Shown piece by piece: positions 27,368-42,144 of a stretch of 64,000 bases of DNA. Source of the stretch: Nakamurella multipartita DSM 44233. GTDB taxonomy: Bacteria > Actinomycetota > Actinomycetes > Mycobacteriales > Nakamurellaceae. The stretch covers positions 1,984,001-2,048,000 of the forward strand of contig NC_013235.1 in the NCBI RefSeq assembly GCF_000024365.1. The letters are read 5' to 3'. The notes beneath the pieces were generated by a model. The model worked only from the letters and a program-made list of their open reading frames with translations. It searched no databases and was not told where the DNA came from. A program made the translations under genes and the position numbers. Numbering within the stretch: the stretch's first letter is position 1; each line of letters opens with the position of its first letter.

Positions 27368-28588
27368 TCAGTGCTGGGACCCGCTGGCCGGGGTCCGTGG
27401 CTGGCCGATCTTGGCCAGGAGCTGCACGAACTGCGGGTCGTCGATGTCGTAGGGCTTGCCGCCCTTGATCCGGTCGAACTCGACCGCCCGGAGCTGGTCG
27501 CCCTGCTCCTCGTCATGCCCGACGACGCCGGAGATGCCGCGCAGCGCGCAGCCGACCGCGTAGTCGGTCATCGACTTGATCAGCAGCAGGTCGGTCTCGT
27601 CGGCCCGGGCGGACCGGGCGAAGTAGCCGGACTTCTGGACCAGGACCTTCTCCGCGCCCAACCGGCCGGCGAACTGCTTGGCGAACCACTGGCCGGGGTT
27701 GATCTGGTCGAGCTTGACGTGGCCGAACGGGTCGCGGGGGATCGGCTCGCCGGCCGCTTCCATCTCGGCCACAATGCTGTCCACGCCCGCGCCCTCGGAC
27801 AGGAAGATGGTCACGTTGCCCACGGTGTCCATCACCTGGCGCAGCCGGGTGGCCTCGGCCTCCAGGTCGAAGGTGGCCTCGGGCACGTACACGGCGTGCA
27901 TGTTCCAGGCGTCCCGGGACAGGCCGAACTCGGGCAGCCAGCGCTGGGTGTCCAGCCAGCGGTCGTAGGCCTGGGCAGTGGCGGCGGTCAGCCAGCCGCA
28001 GTGCCGGCCCATGATCTCGTGCACGATCAGCATGCGGGAGTTCGCGTTGTGCTCGGCGACCACGTTGCGGGCGAACAGCGCGCCCTGCTCGGCCGCCGTC
28101 CACGCGCCCAGCGAGTGCTTGATCGGCACGATGTCGTTGTCGATGGTCTTGGGCAGGCCGACCACGGTCAGGTCGTAGCCGTTGTCCTTGAGGTAACGGG
28201 CCAGGTCGGCCGCGGTGGTCGCGGTGTCGTCGCCGCCGATGGTGTGCAGGACGTCCACGCCGTCCTCGACCAGCCGGTTCGCGGCGACCTCGAGCGGGTT
28301 CTGACCCTCGGTGATCAGCCCTCGCTTGAGCAGATCCTTGGTGTTGGTCAGCTTGACCCGGGAGTTGCCCAGCGGGGAGCCGCCGAACTCGTGCAGCAGG
28401 GCTGCCCGGGCCCGTACCGCGGGGGTGACGTCCAGGAAGTCCTTGGCCAGCAGCCCCTGGTACCCGTGCCGGTACCCGATGATGTCCACCTCGGGGACCA
28501 GCTGGGTGTAGCGGTTGATCAGTCCACCGACCGCCGCGGACAGGCACGGGGCGAAACCGCCGGCGGTGAGCAGCGCGACCTTGCGCAT
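27368..28588 (-). CDS. pfp: PPi-type 6-phosphofructokinase
   Basis: 406 residues from the ATG at 28588, where the protein begins MRKVALLTAGGFAPCLSAAV. IGGDDTAT (near residue 105) has Asp at the position that excludes ATP, and VGLPKTIDNDI carries the Lys of PPi-dependent enzymes. MGRHCGWLTA is the substrate-binding MGR motif. It interconverts fructose 6-phosphate and fructose 1,6-bisphosphate, probably using pyrophosphate. Phosphoryl-donor assignment is from these motifs only. A tandem repeat follows its stop. Confidence 0.88.
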   Translation of the reverse strand: MRKVALLTAGGFAPCLSAAVGGLINRYTQLVPEVDIIGYRHGYQGLLAKDFLDVTPAVRARAALLHEFGGSPLGNSRVKLTNTKDLLKRGLITEGQNPLEVAANRLVEDGVDVLHTIGGDDTATTAADLARYLKDNGYDLTVVGLPKTIDNDIVPIKHSLGAWTAAEQGALFARNVVAEHNANSRMLIVHEIMGRHCGWLTAATAQAYDRWLDTQRWLPEFGLSRDAWNMHAVYVPEATFDLEAEATRLRQVMDTVGNVTIFLSEGAGVDSIVAEMEAAGEPIPRDPFGHVKLDQINPGQWFAKQFAGRLGAEKVLVQKSGYFARSARADETDLLLIKSMTDYAVGCALRGISGVVGHDEEQGDQLRAVEFDRIKGGKPYDIDDPQFVQLLAKIGQPRTPASGSQH

Positions 28589-29190
28589 GGTGACGAGGCC
28601 TTTCTGTCGGTACTGGTTGGCCACTGGTGTCGCTCAGCCTAGGACCTGCCCGGGACCGGGTCGCGCACCGTCCATCCGGTCGTCGCGGGGGCCGAATGGG
28701 CCGGTCGGGCGGCCGGGAGCGCAAGGACGCCGCCCGCCGGGCCCGGTTGCGATCGTGCCGCAGTGGCGAGGGTCACACGGTCGGTTCTGGGGGTCCGAAC
28801 GTCCGGGGACTGGACACGGGAGAGGTGCTGTTTGCCCTGTTGAGGGCGCTACGGTGACGGAAAGCTTGCTTGGGAAACCACGCACCTGGCGTCGAAGCGT
28901 GAACTCAAGCACGTTGACCTGGACTTGATCGATACAGCACACTCGTTTCAGACAGCAGGACATGCATTGACGGTCATGTCCCGCAGTCACACACAGTGAT
29001 CATCACGAGCGTTCGTCGAAGAACGCCGGATCGGGAGCGCGGCATTCGCCGAGGCAACGCAGCCACATTGGGGCGCACCGATCATCCAGACCCTCCGCGG
29101 GCTGACCAAGGCCCACCGCCGGAGCGCACGCAAATCCCCGCTCACCCTGTCGAGCCGTCCCGATCTCTTCCGTTGGAGGAGTGCCGAACC
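28589..29190 (+). other. 602-base divergent region with three hairpins upstream of the GT2 gene
   Basis: No gene is seen between pfp and the GT2 gene. From about 28840 the DNA is less GC-rich and carries consecutive small inverted repeats: GGACATG/CATGTCC (28958-28964, 28975-28981), GTGATCATCAC (28996-29006) and GCGTTC/GAACGC (29009-29014, 29021-29026). These could fold in the 5' leader of the polysaccharide gene. I could not match them to a known riboswitch. Confidence 0.5.
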
Positions 29191-30966
29191 ATGTCCCTGA
29201 ACCAAGAGAACGCTGATCTGATCCCGATGGAACCCGACACCGGCGTGCGCGAGTCCGATGACCGCCGCCGCGGTGCCCGGGATTCACCCTCCCTGATGAT
29301 GCTGGTGCTCGTCGCCACCATCGGTGTGCTGCTGTACACCACGTTCCTGTTCGACTTCTCGAACCGGGGCAACTGGCTTCCGTACCTGATGGTGCTGTCC
29401 GCCGAGTCGGTCATCATCTTCCAGGCCCTGATCGCGCTGTGGACCATCCTGTCCAGCGGTCACAACCCGCGGGGCTACCGCTTCCACAACGCGCAGAACC
29501 GGATCTACGGACCGAATCACAAGACTCTGGATCCGGATCTGGACCTGACCACGCTGCCGATGCACCTGCACGATTCGCCGGTCGAGCTGGACGTCTACAT
29601 CACCACCTACGGTGAGGACCTCGCGACCATCCGCCGGACGATTACCGCTGCGCTGGCCATGCACGGCAAGCACACCACCTACGTGCTCGATGACGGCAAG
29701 TCCGACGACGTCCGGGCGCTGGCCGCCGAGCTGGGCGCCGAGTACATCGTCCGTGAGGGCAACGCCGGCGCGAAGGCCGGCAACATCAACAACGCGCTGA
29801 GCGTCACCACCGGCGAGTTCTACGTCGTGCTGGACGCCGATTTCGTGCCCAAGGAAGACTTCCTGTACCAGACCGTGCCCTTCTTCGCGGAGACCAATGT
29901 GGCCTTCGTGCAGACCCCGCAGGCCTACGGCAACCTGGACAACCTGATCTCCCGTGGCGCCGGCTACATGCAGTCCGTGTTCTACCGGTTCATCCAGCCG
30001 GGCAAGAACCGCTTCAACGCCGCGTTCTGCGTGGGCACCAACGTGATCTTCCGCCGCAAGGCGATCGAGTCCATCGGTGGCATGTACACCGAGTCCAAGT
30101 CCGAGGACGTGTGGACCTCGCTCAAGCTGCACGAGAACGGCTGGAAGTCGGTCTACATCTCCACCGTGCTGGCCGTCGGCGACACCCCCGAGACCATCGA
30201 GGCCTACACCAAGCAGCAGCAGCGCTGGGCGACCGGCGGGTTCGAGATCCTGCTCAAGGCCAACCCGTTCTCCCGCAAGCGCAAGCTGACCCTGGACCAG
30301 CGCCTGCAGTACTTCGGCACCGCCACGTTCTACCTGATCGGCATCGCCCCCGGCGTCCTGTTGCTGGTGCCGCCGCTGCAGATCTACTTCGGTCTGGCCC
30401 CGATCAACACCGGCGTCAGCTTCGGCCAGTGGCTGCTGTACTACGCGGGCTTCTACTTCATGCAGATCATCGTCGCGCTGTACACCATCGGGTCCTTCCG
30501 CTGGGAAACCCTGATGCTGGCCACCGCCTCGTTCCCGATCTACGGCAAGGCCCTGGTCAACGCGGTGTTCAAGAAGGACACCAAGTGGCACGTGACCGGT
30601 GCCCAGCGGCGCAAGGCCTCCCCGTTCAACTTCATCACCCAGCAGCTGATGGCCTTCGTCTTCCTGGCCATCACCTCCGTGGTCGGCATCTGGCAGGCCA
30701 TGACGGTCAGCGCCTTCACCCTGGCGCTGTTCTGGAACCTGCTGAACACCTTCATCCTCGGCGCGTTCGTGATCACCGCGTTCCGCGAGAGCCGGCACAA
30801 CCGCCGCGAGGAGAAGGGCCTGCCGCCCAAGGGCAGCGCGAAGGTGGCCGCCGAGGCCGCTGCGGCCCGGGCCCTGGCCCAGGACAAGATCGGTTCCGGC
30901 CTGTCTGAGCGGACCTACGAGGGACTGCCCCCGGTGCGGATCGACACCGCCGCCGGCGCCCGCTGA
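29191..30966 (+). CDS. Family 2 polysaccharide synthase (cellulose/curdlan synthase-like)
   Basis: 591 residues, chosen at the ATG 10 bases after GGAGGA. Two N-terminal membrane helices (about 34-55, 65-90) precede a cytoplasmic GT2 domain. Catalytic features are YVLDDGKSDD (first Asp), VVLDADF (DxD, near 213), SKSEDVWTSLKL (base Asp, near 304) and QQQRW (near 341), the order of processive beta-glycan synthases. At least four C-terminal helices form the export channel. No PilZ domain is present. The GH81 beta-1,3-glucanase two genes on suggests a beta-1,3-glucan (curdlan-like) product; cellulose or another glycan remains possible. Confidence 0.88.
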   Translation: MSLNQENADLIPMEPDTGVRESDDRRRGARDSPSLMMLVLVATIGVLLYTTFLFDFSNRGNWLPYLMVLSAESVIIFQALIALWTILSSGHNPRGYRFHNAQNRIYGPNHKTLDPDLDLTTLPMHLHDSPVELDVYITTYGEDLATIRRTITAALAMHGKHTTYVLDDGKSDDVRALAAELGAEYIVREGNAGAKAGNINNALSVTTGEFYVVLDADFVPKEDFLYQTVPFFAETNVAFVQTPQAYGNLDNLISRGAGYMQSVFYRFIQPGKNRFNAAFCVGTNVIFRRKAIESIGGMYTESKSEDVWTSLKLHENGWKSVYISTVLAVGDTPETIEAYTKQQQRWATGGFEILLKANPFSRKRKLTLDQRLQYFGTATFYLIGIAPGVLLLVPPLQIYFGLAPINTGVSFGQWLLYYAGFYFMQIIVALYTIGSFRWETLMLATASFPIYGKALVNAVFKKDTKWHVTGAQRRKASPFNFITQQLMAFVFLAITSVVGIWQAMTVSAFTLALFWNLLNTFILGAFVITAFRESRHNRREEKGLPPKGSAKVAAEAAAARALAQDKIGSGLSERTYEGLPPVRIDTAAGAR

Positions 30967-31146
30967 CCCACGTCGAGCACCACCCGCACGACCGTCAGGC
31001 CGAGGACGTCCTGAGCCGCCGGTGACGGCCGGCAGCCAGCACCGCACCACCCACCGCAATGTCCCTGGCGGACCCGGAAACGGGCCGCTCGGGTTCGCCC
31101 CCGGAGCGATCCGGACCGGACCCACCCATATACAGGAGTCATCCAC

Positions 31147-31869
31147 ATGTCTTGGCGCAAGCGAATCGGCCTGGCCCTCGGACTGTTGTCCGTGATCGTT
31201 CTGGCCGCCGGCCTGACCATGGTCGTCAACTACAACAGCGGGAAGGTGGAGAGCAAGTCCGCCTCCCTGGCCGCTGAGGATTACCCGGTCGGTACCGACT
31301 ACTCCGGCACCGTCACCGCGCAGTACGTGCACGTCGGCGATCAGGTCGAGGCCGGACAGCCGCTGTTCGAGATCGAGTCCGCCAACCTGCAGCGCGACCT
31401 GGCCCAGGGCCTGGTCAACAAGGACAACCTGACCCACGACGTCAAGGACGACAAGACCCTGGTCATCACGGCCACCAACGCCGGCCAGGTCAACGAGATC
31501 AACTACGCCCAGGGCGCCTTCGTCCCGGCCAACTCCACGATCGCCACCGTCCAGGAGTCCGGCACCATGTACGTCGAGGCGGACTTCCTGCTCTCGGCCA
31601 AGGACTACTCGCGGATCCCGTCCGGTGCGACCGTGGACGTGGTGCTGCCGAACAACCAGCAGATCTCGGCCACCGTGCAGCGCCTGCAGGTGCACACCGA
31701 GGACGGCCAGGCCCGCACCACCGTCCGCGCCTACAGCGATGACCTGGCCAGCGGCACCGGCCTGTTCGCGGTCGGCACCCCGGTGCAGGTGACCCTGCAC
31801 CTGACCAACGACGGCGTCATCACCGACGTCACCAAGACCGTCACCGGCTGGTTCGGCCAGAGCGTCTGA
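31147..31869 (+). CDS. Membrane-fusion (HlyD/biotinyl-lipoyl-like) protein
   Basis: 240 residues. An N-terminal membrane anchor (residues 8-28) precedes an extracytoplasmic domain. VHVGDQVEAGQPLFEIES (near 60) is a lipoyl-type hairpin, and NAGQVNEINYAQGAFVPANS (near 115) is the second half, as in HlyD adaptors. AGGAG is eight bases upstream. It lies 180 bases after the GT2 gene, in the place that Alg44-like adaptors take in other exopolysaccharide operons. A role in moving the glycan through the envelope is inferred. A terminator follows directly. Confidence 0.75.
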   Translation: MSWRKRIGLALGLLSVIVLAAGLTMVVNYNSGKVESKSASLAAEDYPVGTDYSGTVTAQYVHVGDQVEAGQPLFEIESANLQRDLAQGLVNKDNLTHDVKDDKTLVITATNAGQVNEINYAQGAFVPANSTIATVQESGTMYVEADFLLSAKDYSRIPSGATVDVVLPNNQQISATVQRLQVHTEDGQARTTVRAYSDDLASGTGLFAVGTPVQVTLHLTNDGVITDVTKTVTGWFGQSV

Positions 31870-31880
31870 GCCATCCGCGC

Positions 31881-31911
31881 CCCGATGGCGGGCCACCGGC
31901 CCGCCATCGGG
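31881..31911 (+). terminator. Stem-loop after the membrane-fusion gene
   Basis: CCCGATGGCGGGCC (31881-31894) pairs perfectly over 14 bases with 31898-31911 around a 3-base loop. It lies 70 bases before the GH81 gene, so GH81 is either expressed from its own promoter or attenuated. Confidence 0.85.
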
Positions 31912-31981
31912 TAGCGCTGACCCGGACTGATGTCCGAAGACCGATGACCGCTGCACAGCGATACGACACGTATTGGATGAG

Positions 31982-34081
31982 ATGACTATCAACGACACCG
32001 ACCGAACCTCGATCTCAGCTCGCACTTCCCCCTTCACCAAGTACCGCGTCCTGACCAAGCCCCTGCTGCTGGTCGCCGGCGCCGCCCTGATCGCCGGGTG
32101 CACCGCCACCGGCGGCAGCGGCTCCGCGACGAGCACCACGGCCACCGGCTCGGGCTCGGGCGCCGCCGCGACGGCCGCCCCGGCCCCGGACATCACCGCC
32201 GACCTGGCCAGCATCACCACCAAGGACGTGGCCAAGATCAGCCCGACCCGGCTGGCCGACGGCCTCGTGGCCCCGACCAACCGCTGGTTCTCCGGCCTGG
32301 TCTTCGGCGACAAGCCGCAGCCGGTCTTCCCGCTGCCGCTGTCCGCGGCGCTGACCGATCAGGGCTTCGCGCTCGGCCTGCCGACCATCACCGACTCGGC
32401 CAAGACGATCATGGGCGGGACCAACCCGCAGATCCAGGTGCCGCTGGGCGCCTCGTCGATGAAGGTCACCGGCTACGACACGCTGACCGTCACCTCGACC
32501 TACTACGACGGTTCCGGTTCCGAGCTGGGCTCGGTGCTGCTGGCCCAGGGCTCGCCCTTCGTCACCTACACCGCGGCCAGCGACCAGACCCTGGCCATCG
32601 AGCCGATCTTCAAGGCCGGCAGCACCGCCGGTCTGTACACCACCAACGTGGCCGGGCACGACTACGGCCTGGTCGTCGGTGGCGGGGCGAGCGTCGATGA
32701 CGCCGGCAAGGTCACCCTGACTTCCGGTTCGACCATCACCCTGTACGGCGTGCCGGACGGTGCGGATGCCGCGTCGCTGGCCACCGCCGCGGCCGACCCG
32801 GTGACCGGCGGCAGCGTCGACTACTCGGTGGACGGTGACCAGGTCACCACCACCCTGAAGTACACGACCAAGAACGGCGGCGACACCGCGATCATGCCGA
32901 TGGCCGGTCAGACCGTGGCCACCGGCACCAAGGGTGCCGGCAGCTACCAGACCATCTACGGCACCGCCGACGTCTACACCGGTACCTCGCTGACCACGTC
33001 GGCGCCGTTGACCGAGCCGTCCTACCAGCTCGACGTGTCCAACCTGTCCGACGAGGACAAGGCGGCGCTGGTCGAGCAGGTCAAGACCGACGCCGCGGCG
33101 ATCGACTTCACCGCGACCGACACCTACTTCGGCGGCAAGTACCTCTACCGCGGCGCCAACCTGATGACGTTGGCGGAGCAGCTGGGCGTCGACGACGTGG
33201 CCAAGGACCTGCGGACCAAGCTGACCGCGGAACTGACGATGTGGTTCGACCCGAAGCGCTGCGCCACCGAGGCGACCAAGTGCTTCGTCTACGACGACCA
33301 GATCAAGTCCCTGATCGGCCAGGAGGCCTCCTTCGGCTCCGACGAGCTCAACGATCACCACTTCCACTACGGCTACCTGATCTACGCGGCCGCCGTGGTC
33401 TCGGCGAACGACTCGGCCCTGGCCGACAAGATCGCGCCGGTGGTCGACCTGGCGGTGGCCGACATCGCGTCCGCCCGGGCCAGCTCGGCGTTCCCGCAGT
33501 ACCGCAACTTTGATCCGTACTCGGGTCACGCCTGGGCGTCGGGTTCCAGCCCGTTCGCCGACGGCAACAACCAGGAGTCCTCCAGCGAGGCGGTCAACGC
33601 GTGGAACGCGGTGGCCCTGTGGGCCAAGGTCCGCGGCAACACCGAGCTGCAGAACCAGGCCACCTGGATGATGAGCACCGAGGCGAACGCGGCCAAGCTG
33701 TACTGGACCAACACGGACACCAGCGAGTTCCCGGCGTTCACCGGTTCGATCGCGGCCCTGAACTGGGGCGGCAAGCGCGACTACGCCACCTGGTTCAGTG
33801 CCGAGCCGGGCGCCATGCTGGGCATCCAGCTGCTCCCGATGGGCTCGTACTCGACCTACCTGGCCGGCGATGCCGACCGGATCAAGGCCAACCTCGAGCA
33901 GGGTGCCGCCGGCGGTTACGGCGTGCAGTTCGGCGAGTACATGGCGCAGTACCTGGCCCTGGCCGACCCGGCCGCGGCCCGATCCGAGCTGGCCAACCTG
34001 CCGGCCGAGATCGACAACGCGACGACGAAGTCCTACGTGATGGCCTACGTCTTCTCGCGGAGCGACTCCTCGGGCTCGTAA
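31982..34081 (+). CDS. Secreted lipoprotein GH81 endo-beta-1,3-glucanase
   Basis: 699 residues from the ATG at 31982; a TTG at 31973 is also possible, and no good ribosome site is visible for either. The lipobox LIAGC is near residue 37, followed by a Ser/Thr/Gly linker. The body matches GH81: LVAPTNRWFSGLVF near 95, then NDHHFHYGYLIYAA near 460 with the catalytic Asp/His cluster, and NQESSSEAVNAWNAV near 533 with the catalytic Glu pair. GH81 enzymes hydrolyse beta-1,3-glucans. Next to a GT2 synthase it may trim or release the polymer made by the same cell, or use external fungal glucan. Confidence 0.9.
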   Translation: MTINDTDRTSISARTSPFTKYRVLTKPLLLVAGAALIAGCTATGGSGSATSTTATGSGSGAAATAAPAPDITADLASITTKDVAKISPTRLADGLVAPTNRWFSGLVFGDKPQPVFPLPLSAALTDQGFALGLPTITDSAKTIMGGTNPQIQVPLGASSMKVTGYDTLTVTSTYYDGSGSELGSVLLAQGSPFVTYTAASDQTLAIEPIFKAGSTAGLYTTNVAGHDYGLVVGGGASVDDAGKVTLTSGSTITLYGVPDGADAASLATAAADPVTGGSVDYSVDGDQVTTTLKYTTKNGGDTAIMPMAGQTVATGTKGAGSYQTIYGTADVYTGTSLTTSAPLTEPSYQLDVSNLSDEDKAALVEQVKTDAAAIDFTATDTYFGGKYLYRGANLMTLAEQLGVDDVAKDLRTKLTAELTMWFDPKRCATEATKCFVYDDQIKSLIGQEASFGSDELNDHHFHYGYLIYAAAVVSANDSALADKIAPVVDLAVADIASARASSAFPQYRNFDPYSGHAWASGSSPFADGNNQESSSEAVNAWNAVALWAKVRGNTELQNQATWMMSTEANAAKLYWTNTDTSEFPAFTGSIAALNWGGKRDYATWFSAEPGAMLGIQLLPMGSYSTYLAGDADRIKANLEQGAAGGYGVQFGEYMAQYLALADPAAARSELANLPAEIDNATTKSYVMAYVFSRSDSSGS

Positions 34082-34268
34082 CTGCGCCCCACAAGGCCTC
34101 ACCCCCCGGCGACTGGACCGTCAACCCGCCGGCCGGGAGGTGAGTGAGGGAGCCTCGGTCGCCCCGGTCTCTAGGGACAGGGCCGGGGCGGCCGACGGTG
34201 AAGCTCCCGATCGAGGATGCTACCCACCGGCGCTCTTCGGAGCGCGAACAGACTTCCTCACCGACAGC

Positions 34269-34304
34269 AACGGCCCGGACCTGGTTCGCCAGGTCCGGGC
34301 CGTT
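34269..34304 (+). terminator. Terminator after the GH81 gene
   Basis: AACGGCCCGGACCTGG (34269-34284) pairs perfectly over 16 bases with 34289-34304 around a TTCG tetraloop. It separates the convergent GH81 and SDR genes. The 190 bases before it hold no gene that I can see. Confidence 0.92.
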
Positions 34305-35200: not shown

Positions 35201-37882
35201 CTACTGCGCGGGCGGGGTGGTCAGGATCAGGTGGGCGACCAGGGCGGTCCACCCGGTCTGGTGCTCGGCGCCCAGGCCCATCCCGGTGTCGCCGTGGAAG
35301 TACTCGTGGAACGGCAGGTTGTCCTTCCACCGCGGGTCGGTGGCCAGCAGGTCGTACCAGCCGTGCACCGGGCGCCGGCCGTCCGGGCCGGGCAGGAAGA
35401 TCGATACCAGCCGGCGGGCGATGTCGTCGGCGGCCTGGCCCACGGTGGCCGTGCTCCCCGAGCCGGTCGGGTACTCCACCGTCAGCGCGCCCGGGGTGAG
35501 CCGCTCGTAATCGCGCAGCGCCTCGACCAGCAGCACGTTCAGCGGCATCCAGATCGGGCCGCGCCAGTTGGAGTTGCCGCCGAACAGGTTGGTGGTCGAT
35601 TCGGCCGGCTCGTAGTCCACCGACGCCTCCTGATCGCCGATCCGGATCGAGAACGGATGCTCGCGATGCCAGGCCGAGACCGACCTGATGCCGTAGTCAC
35701 CGAGCAGCCCGCTGGGCTCGAACACGTTGCCCAGCAACCGGATCAGCCGGTCCGGTGGCACCAGGGCGAGCATCCGGTGCCGCACGCCGTCGGCGTCGTG
35801 GGTGTGGAACAGGCTCAGCGCCTCCGGGTGGTTGGCCAGGTACCAGACGGCCCGGGCGGTGAAGTCGGGCAGGTTGGCATCGCCCACCGAGCCGTCGTAG
35901 GTCAGGGCGGCCCGCAGCGGGACCAGGCCGACCAGCGACTTGACCTTGATCGGCACGTCCACGCCGCCGACCAGGTGCAGCACGTCGTAGAAGTAGGCGT
36001 CCTGGTCGTCCCACATCACCCCGCCGTTGGCCGCGCCGGCGATGGTCAGGAAGTGCTCGAAGAACTTGGTGGCCACGTCCTCGTAGGACCGGTTGTGCCG
36101 GGCCAGCCGCAACGCGATGTCCAGCAGGTCCAGGGCGTACATGGCCATCCAGGCGGTCGAGTCCGCCTGTTCCAGGAACCCGACGTCGGGGGGCAGCGAG
36201 GACCGGTCGAGCGGGGAGATGTTGTCCAGCCCCATGAATCCGCCCTCGAACAGGTTGTCCTGCTCGCGGTCCTTGCTGTTGACCCACCAGGTGAAGTTGA
36301 TCAGCAGCTTGTGGAAGATGCGGGCCAGGAACTCGAAGTCGGTGCGCGCGTCGATCTCGAACACCCGGATCGCGGCCCACCCGTGCACCGGCGGGTTGAC
36401 GTCGGAGAAGTTCCACTCGTAGGCCGGCAACTGCCCGTTGGGGTGCATGTACCACTCGCGCAGCAGCAGGATCAGCTGGTCCTTGGCGAACTGCGGGTCG
36501 ATGTGGGCCAGCGTGACGCAGTGGAAGGCCAGGTCCCAGGCGGCGAACCAGGGATATTCCCACGGGTCCGGCATGAGGATCACTTCGTGGTTGTTCAGGT
36601 GTCGCCAACTGCCGTTGCGGATCAACCCGCGGCCCGGCGGGGGCACCGGCTGACCGGGATCGCCGTCCAGCCAACGGTTCACGTCGTAGTGGTAGAACTG
36701 CTTGCCCCACAGCAGCCCGGCGAACGCCTGCCGGGCCACCCGGTACTCCTCCTGTTCCCGGGCCACCGGGATGGCGGCGTCGTAGAACGCGTCGGCCTCG
36801 GCCCGCCGGTCGGCCAGCGTCGCGTCGAACCCGTCGGCGACGTCGATCGGGTGCGTGGTCAGCGCGGCCGAGTCCGCGTCCAGCGCCGGGTGCGGCACGC
36901 CGACGAGCCGGACCCGGACCCGGGCCTGCCCGCCGGCCGGCACGGTCAGCGTGTAGTGCAGGGCCGCCTTGGTGCCGTGGTGGTCGGGGTTGACCGTGTC
37001 CGCCCCGTGCAGGACGTGGTCGTTGATGCCGTCCTTGGGGTAGTGGGTGGTGTTCTGCCCGCCGAACAGGCGGGCGGCGTTGGTCTCGTTCTCGCAGAAC
37101 AGGTACTCCGGATCGCCCTCGCCGACCAGCACCAGCGGCCCGGAGCGGGAGTGGTCGCCGACGACGCGTCCGGCGGCCAGCCGCATGCTCGGCTTGGGAT
37201 GGTCGGAGTACCCCCACGACCAGGTGTTGCGGAACCACAACGTCGGCAGCACATGGATCGTCGCCTCGTCCGGGCCGGCGTTGTCCACCGTGATGTTCAT
37301 CAGCAGGTCGCGCGGGCCGGCCTTGGCGTAGTCGACGGTGACCACCCAGTACCGGCTCTGGTCGAAGATGCCGGTGTCGACCAGCTCGTACTCGGGCTCG
37401 AGCTTGCCCCGCCGGGCGTTCTCGGCAATCAGGTCGCCGTAGGGAAACTCGCGCTGCGGGTAGTGGTAGCGCCAGGTGTTCCAGGAGTGGGTCGGGGTGG
37501 CATCCAGGTACCACCAGTACTCCTTGACGTCCTCACCGTGGTTGCCCTGCGGGCCGGTCAGGCCGAACATCCGCTCCTTGAGGATCGGGTCCACGCCGTT
37601 CCACAGCCCCAGCGACAGGCACCAGTTCTGCGTGGCGTCGCAGAACCCGGCCATGCCGTCCTCGTTCCACCGGTAGACCCGGGATCGGGCGTGATCGTGC
37701 GGGAAGAAGTCCCAGGCGTTGCCGTCGGCGCTGTAGTCCTCGCGCACCGAACCCCAGGCCCGCTCGGACAGGTACGGTCCCCAGTCCCGCCAGGGCGTGG
37801 TGCCGGCGTCGGCCTCGGCGAGCCGTTCGCCTTCGGCCATGCGGGGCGCGGCGCCGGTGCCGCGCGAGCGAGAGGTTGCCAT
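35201..37882 (-). CDS. GH63/MGH1-like alpha-glucosidase
   Basis: 893 residues. Segments such as [20 protein letters not shown] near the N-terminus, [11 protein letters not shown], and the C-terminal (alpha/alpha)6 portion with [19 protein letters not shown] and [12 protein letters not shown] match bacterial GH63-related glucosidases of this size. The family hydrolyses alpha-glucosidic bonds by inversion. It has no signal peptide, so it should act in the cytoplasm. It starts 2 bases after the MFS stop. The likely job is splitting an imported glucoside whose products the flanking oxidoreductases use. The natural substrate is unknown. Confidence 0.85.
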
Positions 37883-37884
37883 GG

Positions 37885-39132
37885 TCAGGGCCTTTCCGGA
37901 ACGTCAGAACGGGTGGCGGTGGTGACAGGGGGAGTAGCGGGCACCGAAGGGTCGGGTCGCCGCCCGCTCCGGGTGATGACGGCGGCGACGGCGGCCAGGA
38001 CGGCGGCGACCGCGGCCCCGACCAGGTAGACCCCGGACAGGGCCAGCCCGGTGGCCGCCATCAGCGGCGCGACCCCGAAAGCGGCGACGCCGTAGCCGAT
38101 CTGGTAGCCGGCGATCAGCTCGCCGGCCGACGTGGCGCCCAGCCTCGGGAACTCGCGGCCGGCGAAACTGATCGACAGCGGCAGCATCGCCGAACAGGCC
38201 AGCCCGGCCGCCGCGTAGGCCAGCACGGCGGTGGCCGCGGTGCTGGCCCCGGAGACGGCCACGTTGGCGCCGACGATCAGCACGGGCAGCAGCAGGTAGA
38301 CCGCGGTCGCCGGGATCCGGGCCGGCAGCACGGCCACGATCACCCGGCCGACCGTGACGCAGGCCCAGAACGCGGCCAGGGCGGCCGACGCCGTGGCCAC
38401 ACCCAGCCCGCGCTGACCCGACAGGTACAGGCTGGACCAGTTGCCGAACAGGGTCTCGGTGATGCCGTAGAGCACGACCGCCGCCGCGTACCACCAGAAC
38501 CGGCCCGGCAGAACGGCTTTCGGGGTTCCGGCGGTGGGTCCGGCCGCCGGCCCGGGGTCGAGCCGGACCCGCCAGGCCACCGCGATGGCCAGCACCAGGC
38601 CGACGCAGACCCCGACCGGCAACAGCCACCAGCGGGGCAGCAGCACCGCGATGAGCATCGGGGCCAGCGCGGTGCCCAGCCCGAGCAGCACGTTCAGGGT
38701 CAGCACGCTGCGGTCCTCGCGCCCGGGCACCAACGCGGCGGCGAACGTGTTCAGCGCCGAGACACAGCTGCCGAAGCCGAAACCGAGGGCGCCGGTGGCG
38801 GCCAGCAGCAGCAGGTAGGCGCCGCCGGACGGGGCCGGGGCCTGGCTGAGCACCAGCAGCACCATGGCCAGCAGGTTGGCCACCAGCCCGGCCACCAGCA
38901 CCCGCTGCAGGGTCCACCGGCGGGCCAGCACCGGGGTCAGGGCGGCGGCGGTGATGGCCAGGACCACCTGCGGGGCGAACATCAACCCGTACCGGGACGG
39001 CGACAGGTCGTACCCGGTCGGCGCGGTCAGGATCGACGACGCGGCCGGGAAGCAGACCAGGGCCAGTCCCTGGGCCAGGCCCGTCCCGTAGACCAGGGCC
39101 GCGCCGGCCCCGGTCCCACCCCCCGTGCGCAC
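37885..39132 (-). CDS. MFS transporter
   Basis: 415 residues with about 12 hydrophobic helices and the short basic intracellular loop ARRWTLQRV between helices 2 and 3. It starts at GTG 5 bases after the GMC stop, and its stop is 2 bases before the GH63 start, so it is inside the operon. The substrate may be a glucoside or sugar, by context only. The C-terminus is basic. Confidence 0.82.
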   Translation of the reverse strand: MRTGGGTGAGAALVYGTGLAQGLALVCFPAASSILTAPTGYDLSPSRYGLMFAPQVVLAITAAALTPVLARRWTLQRVLVAGLVANLLAMVLLVLSQAPAPSGGAYLLLLAATGALGFGFGSCVSALNTFAAALVPGREDRSVLTLNVLLGLGTALAPMLIAVLLPRWWLLPVGVCVGLVLAIAVAWRVRLDPGPAAGPTAGTPKAVLPGRFWWYAAAVVLYGITETLFGNWSSLYLSGQRGLGVATASAALAAFWACVTVGRVIVAVLPARIPATAVYLLLPVLIVGANVAVSGASTAATAVLAYAAAGLACSAMLPLSISFAGREFPRLGATSAGELIAGYQIGYGVAAFGVAPLMAATGLALSGVYLVGAAVAAVLAAVAAVITRSGRRPDPSVPATPPVTTATRSDVPERP

Positions 39133-39137
39133 CGAGT

Positions 39138-40742
39138 TCAGCCCAGCCGGTCCAGCAGGTGGTCGCCCACCCGCAACGCGTTGGCCGCCGCGGTCAGCGC
39201 CGGGTTCACCGCACCGATCGAGGGAAAGAAGCTGGTGTCCACCACGTACAGGTTGTCCAGCTCGTGGGCCTTGCAGTCGGTGTCCAGCACCGAGTCGGCC
39301 GGATCGCTGCCGAAACGGCAGGTACCGGCCTGGTGGGCCACCCCGGCGATCGGGATGTCGTTCTTCATGTAGGCCGAACGCGGGATCAGGTGATGCGGGT
39401 TCAGCCCGAGATGGCTCAGCCGGCGCTTGATCCGGTGGTAGAGCTCGTCCAGCGGCTTGGTGTTGTTCGGCGTGTAGGACAGGGTGATGTTCCCGTCGGC
39501 GGCCAGCGTGACCCGGTTCTCCGGCCGAGGCAGATCCTCGGTGGACAGCCAGAAATCCACCGCGTGCACGGCCACGTCGGACAGGGCGAAGGAGGGGGCC
39601 AGGGCGGTCTCCAGTGGCTTCTCGCCCCGGTACATCGGCGCCGAGCTCTTGCCGACCATCTGGATGTTGCCCATCGGGTAGTCGAACTCGTCGTCGCCGA
39701 AGTAGAAGTCGTTGACCCCCAGGGTCTTCTGGAAGCGGGTGTCGTTGCGCTCGGTCGACACGGCCAGGAACGCCCGGCTGTTGTGGAAGACGTAGTTGCG
39801 CCCGACCTGGTCCGAACCGTTGGCCAGCCCGTTCGGATGCCGGTCGGAGGCGCTGCGCAGCAACAGCTTGGCCGAGTTGGCCGCGCCGGCGCTGACCACC
39901 ACGATCGAACCGTGGAAGCGGTGCCGCTCGCCGCCGATCATGGCCACCACGTCGGTGACCGAGCGTCCGGTCAGGTCGGTGTCCAGCCGGATCACCTCGG
40001 CGCCGCGGATCAGCGTGACGTTAGGGTGCGTCAGGGCCGGGCGGACCGCGACCACCTCGGCGTCGGACTTGGCGTGCACCAGGCACGGGAAACCGTCGCA
40101 GGTGGCGCAGCGGATGCACCGGCTGTAGGCCATGTCCGCCTCGTTGAGCATGATGCCGGCCGGGGCGTGGAACGGATGCAGCCCGCTGGCCCGCAGATCG
40201 TCGTACAGCTGCTGGATCCGCGCCTCGTGCGAGACCGCCGGAAAAAGATACGGTCCCGAACTCGGTGGTTCGGTGGGATCCTCGCCCCGCTGCCCGTGCA
40301 CCTGGTAGAGCTGCTCGGCCTGCGCGTAGTACGGCTCGAAGTCGGCGTAGCTCACCGGCCACGCGGGGGAGATCCCGTCGAAGTGGATGAGTTCGCCGAA
40401 GTCCTTCTCCCGCAACCGGTACAGCGCCGCGCCGTAAAGCTTGGTGGCGCCGCCGACGTTGTAGTGGATCTGCGGCTGGAAGGACTTACCGTCGGCGTCG
40501 TACCAGGTGTCGGCCGAGACGTACCGGTTGTCGACGAAGACCGCGGTGGCATCCCAGTTCTGCACCTCCCGGGGCAGCCAGTCACCCCGCTCCAGGATCA
40601 GGATCCGCTTGCCGGAGGGCGCCAGCCGGTGGGCGAGCGTGCCGCCCCCGGCGCCGGAACCGATGATGACAACGTCGTAATCGGTGGAGTCGTAATCGGT
40701 GGAGTCGTAGTCGGTGGAGCCGTGGTCGGTGGATTCGGGCAC
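39138..40742 (-). CDS. GMC-family FAD oxidoreductase
   Basis: 534 residues from a GTG after GGAGG. The N-terminus has in-frame STDYD repeats, then the FAD loop DVVIIGSGAGGGTLAHRLA (near 23). NVGGATKLYGAALYRLRE is the second FAD motif, and the C-terminus AVNPALTAAANALRVGDHLL closes the GMC fold with the HQAGTCRFG active-site segment. An unusual CIRCATCDGFPC cluster lies near residue 210. Substrates in the family are sugars and alcohols. As the first gene of the GMC-MFS-GH63-SDR operon it probably oxidises a sugar, with an unknown electron acceptor. Confidence 0.88.
   Translation of the reverse strand: MPESTDHGSTDYDSTDYDSTDYDVVIIGSGAGGGTLAHRLAPSGKRILILERGDWLPREVQNWDATAVFVDNRYVSADTWYDADGKSFQPQIHYNVGGATKLYGAALYRLREKDFGELIHFDGISPAWPVSYADFEPYYAQAEQLYQVHGQRGEDPTEPPSSGPYLFPAVSHEARIQQLYDDLRASGLHPFHAPAGIMLNEADMAYSRCIRCATCDGFPCLVHAKSDAEVVAVRPALTHPNVTLIRGAEVIRLDTDLTGRSVTDVVAMIGGERHRFHGSIVVVSAGAANSAKLLLRSASDRHPNGLANGSDQVGRNYVFHNSRAFLAVSTERNDTRFQKTLGVNDFYFGDDEFDYPMGNIQMVGKSSAPMYRGEKPLETALAPSFALSDVAVHAVDFWLSTEDLPRPENRVTLAADGNITLSYTPNNTKPLDELYHRIKRRLSHLGLNPHHLIPRSAYMKNDIPIAGVAHQAGTCRFGSDPADSVLDTDCKAHELDNLYVVDTSFFPSIGAVNPALTAAANALRVGDHLLDRLG
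40681..40740. repeat. 15-nt in-frame tandem repeat at the GMC N-terminus
   Basis: Four 15-base units based on TCGGTGGAGTCGTAA run from 40681 to 40740, directly after the start codon of the GMC gene on the reverse strand. They encode repeated STDYD-type pentapeptides ahead of the FAD-binding fold. Copies nearest the FAD fold are almost identical; those nearest the start diverge. Confidence 0.9.
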
Positions 40743-40848
40743 GCTGCCTCCAGGGTCGGTGGGTCCGGGCGGCGGCGGTCGCGCCGGACGGGGTGCAGGG
40801 TGGCGGTGCTCGGCGCAGCGTCGGGCCGAGCACCCCGGGGTGGTGCGA

Positions 40849-42144
40849 CTAGAGCGTGGGCTCGTCGGCCTTGCTGTCGGCCCAGGCGATCCGGCCGACC
40901 GAGTCCGCCAGTTCCAGGTCGGGCGCCCGGTCGTGGTGGAAGTAGTCGTCGGCCCAGTTCAGGAAGGCGTCGACCTGGCTGTGGATGCCGGACAGCAGCA
41001 CGGCGTGCAGGCCCAACCAGGCCACGTAGGCCATCGGGCCCTCGAGATGGTGCCGGTGCTTGCCGATCTCGGACACGGCCGCATTGCGACCGATCATCGC
41101 CATGATGCCCTTGTCGTGGTAGTGGAACGGGGTCACCGGCGCGCCCTTGCGGTGCGCGACGATGTTCTTGCCGGCCCACTTGCCCGACTGCTGGGCGACC
41201 GAACCCAGCTGGGGCAGCGCGTGTCCCGAGCCGTCCGGGATGTTCGCGACGTCGCCGACGGCGAACACGCCGGGATTCCCGGGCACGGTCAGGTCGGCGG
41301 CGACGTCGATCCGGCCGCCGTGGCCCAGGGACAGGCCGGTGGTGGACACGATCGGCGGACCGGAGATGCCGCCGGCCCAGATCACCGTGTCGGTGGCCAC
41401 GGTGGAACCGTCGGACAGGGTGGCGGTGTCGGCCTGCACGGCCGCCACGGCGACCCCGAAGGTGATCTGCACGCCCTTCTCGATCAGCTTGGCCCGGGCG
41501 TACTCGTGCGTCTTGTCGGTGAACGGCTTGAGCAGCGCGTGCCCGTGGTCGACCAGCCGGACGGTGGCCTCGGCGTGCAGCGTGCCCTGGTCCTTGAGGG
41601 CGCCGAACAGCTCGGCCAGCGCCCCGGCGGTCTCCACGCCGGTCGGCCCGCCGCCGCAGACGATCACGGTGTACGGCTCGGCGGTGGCCGGATCGCTCAG
41701 CCGGCGCAGCCGGTCCCGCAGGTGTTGGCGCAACCGCCGGGCGTCCTCGACGGTGTACAGCGGGTAGGAGTGCTCGGCCGCCCCCGGGACGCCGAAGAAG
41801 TTGGCCTGCGAGCCGGCCGCGATCACCAGGTAGTCGGCCGTGTAATCGACGGTGCTCTCGCCCGCGTTCTCGCCGTCCTTGGTCACCACCGTCCGGGTGG
41901 CCGGGTCGATGCCGGTGACCTCGGCGGTCACCGTGACCACCCGCCGCTGGTCGGCGAACGCGGTGCTCAGCGGGCGGGCGATGTCCTCGGCCGGCAGCTG
42001 GGAGCTGGCGACCTGGTAGAGCAGCGGCTGGAATTGCGTGTAGTCGTGTCGGTCGAACAACGTCACGTCCACGTCGTGGTCGGCCAGCTCGGAGGCGCAG
42101 GCCACGCCGGCCATCCCGCCGCCGATGATGATCGCCGTGGTCAT
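40849..42144 (-). CDS. ndh: Type II NADH dehydrogenase (NDH-2)
   Basis: 431 residues. The FAD loop IIIGGGMAGVACASELA starts at residue 5. FQPLLYQVASSQL is the quinone-site segment of NDH-2, VIVCGGGPTGVETAGALAE is the NADH loop (near 165), and VFAVGDVANIPDGSGHALPQ the second FAD contact. The C-terminal amphipathic part would hold it to the membrane. It transfers electrons from NADH to menaquinone without pumping protons. It follows cydB on the same strand, so its quinol can feed cytochrome bd directly. Confidence 0.9.
   Translation of the reverse strand: MTTAIIIGGGMAGVACASELADHDVDVTLFDRHDYTQFQPLLYQVASSQLPAEDIARPLSTAFADQRRVVTVTAEVTGIDPATRTVVTKDGENAGESTVDYTADYLVIAAGSQANFFGVPGAAEHSYPLYTVEDARRLRQHLRDRLRRLSDPATAEPYTVIVCGGGPTGVETAGALAELFGALKDQGTLHAEATVRLVDHGHALLKPFTDKTHEYARAKLIEKGVQITFGVAVAAVQADTATLSDGSTVATDTVIWAGGISGPPIVSTTGLSLGHGGRIDVAADLTVPGNPGVFAVGDVANIPDGSGHALPQLGSVAQQSGKWAGKNIVAHRKGAPVTPFHYHDKGIMAMIGRNAAVSEIGKHRHHLEGPMAYVAWLGLHAVLLSGIHSQVDAFLNWADDYFHHDRAPDLELADSVGRIAWADSKADEPTL

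Follow-up and report, generated by a model that had tools for sequence, protein, structure and literature searches.

The genome of Nakamurella multipartita DSM 44233 consists of a single contig of 6,060,298 bp, of which a stretch of 64,000 nucleotides (hereafter, the window) was analyzed. Within it, three (+)-strand genes pointing in the same direction encode a GT2 synthase, a HlyD-family adaptor, and a GH81 lipoprotein (Table 1). The initial annotation had described them as a cluster, which was confirmed by domain matches, motifs, and the conserved neighborhood of the three genes (from here on, the trio). The span assigned to this cluster (28589-34304) holds the trio, but it also includes the 5′ part of a divergent phosphofructokinase gene, which lies outside the unit. 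The host is a known storer of polysaccharide, at times to more than half of its cell mass (PMC3035273).

Table 1. Features of the trio locus in N. multipartita DSM 44233 (positions within the window).
Feature	Position	Strand	Remarks
Phosphofructokinase-family gene, divergent from GT2	27368-28624	-	Beside the trio
Intergenic region and leader, from the divergent phosphofructokinase gene to the GT2 start	28625..29190	+	Presumed promoter region
GT2 processive beta-glucan synthase (putative)	29191..30966	+	591 aa; about 7 predicted membrane helices; LDDG/DAD/SED/QQQRW; no PilZ
HlyD-family adaptor	31147..31869	+	240 aa; predicted N-terminal membrane helix, barrel-sandwich, and beta-barrel; no alpha-hairpin
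Perfect 14-bp hairpin in the adaptor/GH81 gap	31881..31911	+	No U tract
Lipoprotein GH81 endo-beta-1,3-glucanase (putative)	31982..34081	+	702-aa ORF; lipobox LIAGC; D461, E535, E539

No sigma-70 consensus was found upstream of the GT2 gene (28625-29190). The phosphofructokinase gene is also divergent beside the trio of a second Nakamurella (78% identity), and its position is not conserved in other genera. Downstream, positions 35201-42144 of the (-) strand carry in a row genes for an MGH1/GH63-like hydrolase, an MFS transporter, a GMC oxidoreductase, and a pyridine nucleotide-disulphide oxidoreductase. The GC content is 66% at positions 28001-32000 (65% in the GT2 gene) versus 71% across the window, and the trio is patchy within the genus, being present in 2 of 17 Nakamurella genomes. 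Together, both observations hint at a horizontal gain, although gene composition may explain the low GC instead.

The GT2 Synthase

The reading frame of the GT2 gene is open from a GTG at 28996, but the ATG at 29191 is its likely start, as it is preceded by GGAGGAG and the relatives align from about there. The protein matches the Pfam GT2 and Cellulose_synt families, and its motifs LDDG (D167-D168), DAD (D215/D217), SED (D306), and QQQRW (Q342-W346) show no or almost no variation among 36 relatives. In the AlphaFold model (pLDDT 83), a GT-A domain is predicted together with the membrane helices, so that the complete set of processive-synthase residues and the multiple helices first read from this gene were both borne out. 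The closest structural match of the model is BcsA, which is also the best among the solved relatives, and the top NCBIfam model is CelA, at 262.6 bits far below its cut-off of 699.1. PilZ, a domain of which the initial annotation had seen no sign, was absent from all 36 members of the GT2 family examined and gave no match anywhere in the N. multipartita genome, whereas control genomes did give matches. A PilZ-controlled cellulose synthase was rejected on these grounds.

In the catalytic core, the GT2 shares 37-38% identity with CrdS-like proteins and BgsA, 36-40% with BcsA, and 20-23% with poly-GlcNAc and chitooligosaccharide synthases (PgaC/IcaA/NodC). The active-site residues F218, Q244, and C280 agree with CrdS/BgsA against BcsA, while the diagnostic columns overall favor BcsA over CrdS/BgsA by 9 to 5. 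The enzyme is thus equally near to BcsA and to CrdS/BgsA, and its linkage cannot be read from the sequence.

Phylogenetic analysis was carried out with BcsA, a CrdS-like protein, BgsA, actinobacterial GT2s, and, on the side of the poly-GlcNAc and chitooligosaccharide synthases, PgaC, IcaA, and NodC as references, the CrdS reference being that of a crdASC-like plasmid operon. The GT2s of the trio formed one clade with 100/100 support, which grouped with the glucan synthases well apart from PgaC/IcaA/NodC, a position that did not change on adding one row. Clustering with poly-GlcNAc synthases, set beforehand as an outcome that would speak against a glucan synthase, was therefore not seen in this tree, and the identity of the GT2 as a poly-GlcNAc synthase was rejected. 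Within the glucan synthases, the clade fell outside the BcsA clade and outside the CrdS/BgsA clade, each of them supported. The enzyme belongs with the glucan synthases as a group, but membership of CrdS proper was not supported. Sister actinobacterial GT2s (L062, L204-L208) had neither the adaptor nor the GH81.

The Adaptor and the Downstream Hairpin

The HlyD-like character proposed for the protein encoded after the GT2 proved correct, with scores above the Pfam cut-off for HlyD_3 and HlyD_D23. Its predicted model (pLDDT 93) combines a single N-terminal membrane helix with a barrel-sandwich and a beta-barrel and matches ZneB and MacA (Z 13). The α-helical hairpin used for docking to TolC is missing from the model, with just one 8-residue helix at that place. 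Such a hairpin occurs in many HlyD-family membrane fusion proteins, but not in all. Without it, docking to an outer-membrane channel is not to be expected, which fits a Gram-positive cell.

Between the adaptor and GH81 genes, folding revealed a hairpin with a perfect 14-bp stem and a 3-nt loop (fold z -7.1). A terminator had been annotated in this gap; the strong hairpin is indeed present, but it lacks a T run, and a scan for terminators had no hits between the genes of the trio. The second Nakamurella has at this place a hairpin of equal strength but unrelated sequence (z -5.1), and it may be that the structure attenuates GH81 expression in this genus. As the adaptor and GH81 genes abut or overlap in several other genera, the hairpin is not general to the trio.

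The GH81 Glucanase

The third protein scored 185.5 bits against the GH81 C-terminal catalytic domain (cut-off 25.6) and 16.4 bits against the N-terminal domain (cut-off 25.6), the latter part being spanned by the alignment (residues 91-672) to its best solved relative, 6fop (4e-64). A search of the whole genome with Pfam PF03639 gave no match because of this divergent N-terminal domain, whereas the C-terminal model does find the gene. Residues D461, E535, and E539, whose roles as catalytic acid/base residues come from characterized GH81s, are intact, and the NDH..F and NNQExxxE motifs are retained in nearly all of 88 GH81s. At the N-terminus, a hydrophobic signal is followed by the lipobox, and the protein is accordingly read as a putative lipoprotein; together with the domain score and the catalytic acids, this upholds the lipoprotein GH81 of the initial annotation. 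In the Cellulomonas trios, the sequence predicts an N-terminal helix rather than a lipid as the membrane anchor.

One characterized GH81 enzyme cut curdlan, pachyman, laminarin, and yeast glucan, leaving barley mixed-linkage glucan and cellulose uncut, and for other GH81s just minor activity on these last two substrates was reported (PMC9609564). Since published GH81s barely or never cut mixed-linkage glucan or cellulose, a dedicated GH81 suggests runs of β-1,3 links in the product. The presence of a membrane-anchored GH81 with retained catalytic acids thus points to an emerging polymer with consecutive β-1,3 links, for which such an enzyme would make most sense. The main rival reading, that the product is a mixed-linkage β-(1,3;1,4)-glucan of the type made by Sinorhizobium BgsA/BgsB or Romboutsia RiGT2, and that GH81 trims its β-1,3 parts only, seems unlikely to us. 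It draws on the combination of a GT2 and a HlyD-type adaptor without PilZ, which is the layout of BgsBA, and on the existence of a Gram-positive mixed-linkage synthase (PMC10374906), but the GT2 of the trio lies outside the BgsA clade, and alternating links would leave a dedicated GH81 with little to do.

Conservation and Distribution of the Trio

When GTDB genomes were scanned with the alignment of the GT2s, at least 80 named loci were obtained. The genera among the matches listed included Cellulomonas, Cellulosimicrobium, Isoptericola, Sanguibacter, Nocardioides, Pseudonocardia, Curtobacterium, Cryobacterium, Microbacterium, Demequina, Microlunatus, and Micropruina, among others. An adaptor and a GH81 were found downstream of the GT2 in 78 of 80 loci among the matches listed, directly so in nearly all 78, and the remaining two loci end at contig ends. 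This was the outcome expected if GH81 is a conserved neighbor of the synthase, the absence of which had been named beforehand as a refutation. In most of 91 loci, the GT2 and adaptor genes overlap by 4 bp, compared to a gap of 180 bp in N. multipartita. No further gene was conserved beside the trio across genera; in particular, BcsB, GH8, and GH6 were not among its conserved neighbors, which are the adaptor and GH81 only.

Across 395 evenly sampled genomes of the class, a close GT2 (E ≤ 1e-180, the next match at 1e-89) and a close GH81 (E ≤ 1e-129, the next at 1e-70) were present in the same eight genomes. A simple probability for this linkage is inflated by shared ancestry; the link nevertheless spans many families. 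The trio is a real unit, and a chance neighborhood of GT2 and GH81 was ruled out by the near-invariable linkage across genera. In addition, a single clade unites the GH81s of the trio, separate from the stand-alone GH81s, among which falls the second GH81 copy of the other trio-bearing Nakamurella. It follows that the hydrolase was passed on together with the synthase and not repeatedly recruited.

These data also bear on the reading of the GH81 as a glucanase in its own right, serving to feed on glucan from fungi or algae and placed by chance beside an exopolysaccharide synthase. Stand-alone GH81s are certainly common in the class, with 43 of the 395 genomes carrying a distant one only, but the near-perfect linkage across genera, the separate clade, and the predicted membrane anchoring instead of free secretion largely refute this reading, to which we give hardly any credence. 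Similarly, production of cellulose or a mainly β-1,4-linked glucan, with a GH81 of altered specificity or with another target, would agree with BcsA and CelA as the best solved relative and the best NCBIfam model, respectively. It appears improbable, given a synthase without PilZ and outside the BcsA clade, the lack of BcsB or GH8/GH6 as a conserved partner, and GH81 catalytic motifs that are retained across the set.

Several loci depart from the common arrangement. In one Demequina (L136), about 2.8 kb separate the adaptor gene from the GH81 gene downstream, with something inserted between them, and one genome (L195, G650) carries two GT2-adaptor pairs in tandem followed by a single GH81. One genome of the Cellulomonas group (G576) has two full copies of the trio far apart (L183 and L184). 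In another case (L196, G633), an apparent frameshift, possibly a sequencing error, interrupts the reading frame of the GT2, whereas the adaptor and GH81 are intact. A contig labelled as an Acidobacteria MAG (L141) contains a complete trio nested among the actinobacterial ones, which could correspond to a misbinned contig or to transfer between phyla. Finally, the trio is also carried by Micropruina glycogenica (L140), by name a polysaccharide accumulator.

The Trio in Cellulomonas

Cellulomonas was recognized decades ago as a source of curdlan. The trio was found in the genomes of C. flavigena, C. fimi, and C. gilvus, the first of which is a curdlan producer (PMC3035266). It is also present in C. 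gelida (L097), a species reported to be without curdlan exopolysaccharide (PMC3035266), so the presence of the trio does not equal abundant production. In the sections available to us, a 2013 genome paper lists two GT2 curdlan-synthase candidates per Cellulomonas species by similarity alone, describes the way in which curdlan is reused by C. flavigena as unclear, and draws no link from the candidates to an adaptor or a GH81 (PMC3544764).

A CrdS-like query retrieved two GT2 loci in each of the three genomes, and the GT2 of the trio was the best match in each. By position only, that is, by interpolation and not by annotation, the trio copies fit the published candidates Cfla_3154, Celf_3456, and Celgi_1506, which would make these the better CrdS match of each pair, and the other loci fit Cfla_2615, Celf_3585, and Celgi_0939. 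The other C. flavigena candidate (L252) has no GH81 and adjoins a MASE1-SpoIIE regulator (phosphatase). This second Cellulomonas GT2 is possibly a differently regulated glucan synthase. Its DxD and SED motifs are separated by an insertion in C. flavigena and in two further loci (L253, L254), and in C. gilvus it adjoins genes resembling STAS and anti-sigma partners.

Proposed Function

Taken together, we consider it probable that the three genes act together as a unit for making, exporting, and editing or recycling a linear, curdlan-like β-1,3-glucan. The GT2 would use UDP-glucose on the cytoplasmic side and add glucose processively, passing the chain across the membrane by way of its own helices in the fashion of BcsA. 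The adaptor, anchored by its single predicted helix and probably sitting over the exit, would guide the chain through the cell wall. GH81, held by a lipid in N. multipartita or by a helix in Cellulomonas, would then cut the β-1,3-glucan as it emerges, which could serve either to trim chains during export or to release sugar from the polymer later. The curdlan-like product put forward initially is favored, as a β-1,3-rich polymer, by the presence of the trio in C. flavigena and by the published specificity of GH81, but the linkage itself is inferred.

No description of the trio was found in the open-access literature. We give roughly even chances to a broader reading, in which these GT2s represent a third, undescribed lineage of bacterial β-1,3-glucan synthases, mainly actinobacterial and nearly always accompanied by a tethered GH81, and constitute the curdlan machinery of Gram-positive bacteria, thereby explaining both the laying down and the reuse of the polymer. 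In the literature found, the curdlan synthase of Cellulomonas had been narrowed just to lists of GT2s. The trio is the best gene candidate for the synthesis and recycling of curdlan-like glucan in Gram-positive actinobacteria, in the form of one testable gene set for both processes, and it offers a set of candidate Gram-positive curdlan-type synthases for biotechnology.

Comparison with Known Systems

The cellulose synthase system Bcs shares with the trio a GT-A domain with the D, DxD, D, and QxxRW residues, a membrane channel, and a hydrolase in the operon; the trio differs from it in having no PilZ and no BcsB, and a GH81 instead of a GH8 or GH6. The BgsBA system of Sinorhizobium meliloti, which makes a mixed-linkage glucan, resembles the trio in that a GT2 without PilZ adjoins a HlyD-family adaptor. 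However, its GT2 belongs to a different clade, it has no GH81, and its adaptor is of 410 aa versus 240 aa in the trio, with a weak profile match between them.

The crdASC system of Agrobacterium has in common with the trio a PilZ-free GT2 from the group of glucan synthases, a neighbor with a HlyD domain, and a β-1,3-glucan product, which for the trio is an expectation only. The function of CrdA was termed unknown (PMC10819609); in a plasmid-borne crdASC-like operon (L147, 1051-2505), the CrdA-like protein has a HlyD domain above the Pfam cut-off. No profile alignment between this protein and the adaptor of the trio was obtained, though each has HlyD domains. In contrast to crdASC, the GT2s of the trio form a separate clade (31-37% identity), a GH81 is part of the operon, and the hosts are Gram-positive. 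No significant CrdC-like match was detected among the trio proteins, nor was a crdC-type gene conserved beside them.

In conclusion, the trio is its own kind of putative actinobacterial glucan synthase operon, with a GT2 that belongs to neither CrdS, BgsA, nor BcsA proper. The fact that HlyD-type partners flank BgsA, a CrdS-like enzyme, and the GT2 of the trio suggests a common design, and that a HlyD-type adaptor (CrdA, BgsB, and that of the trio) is a shared part of β-1,3-linked glucan synthases.
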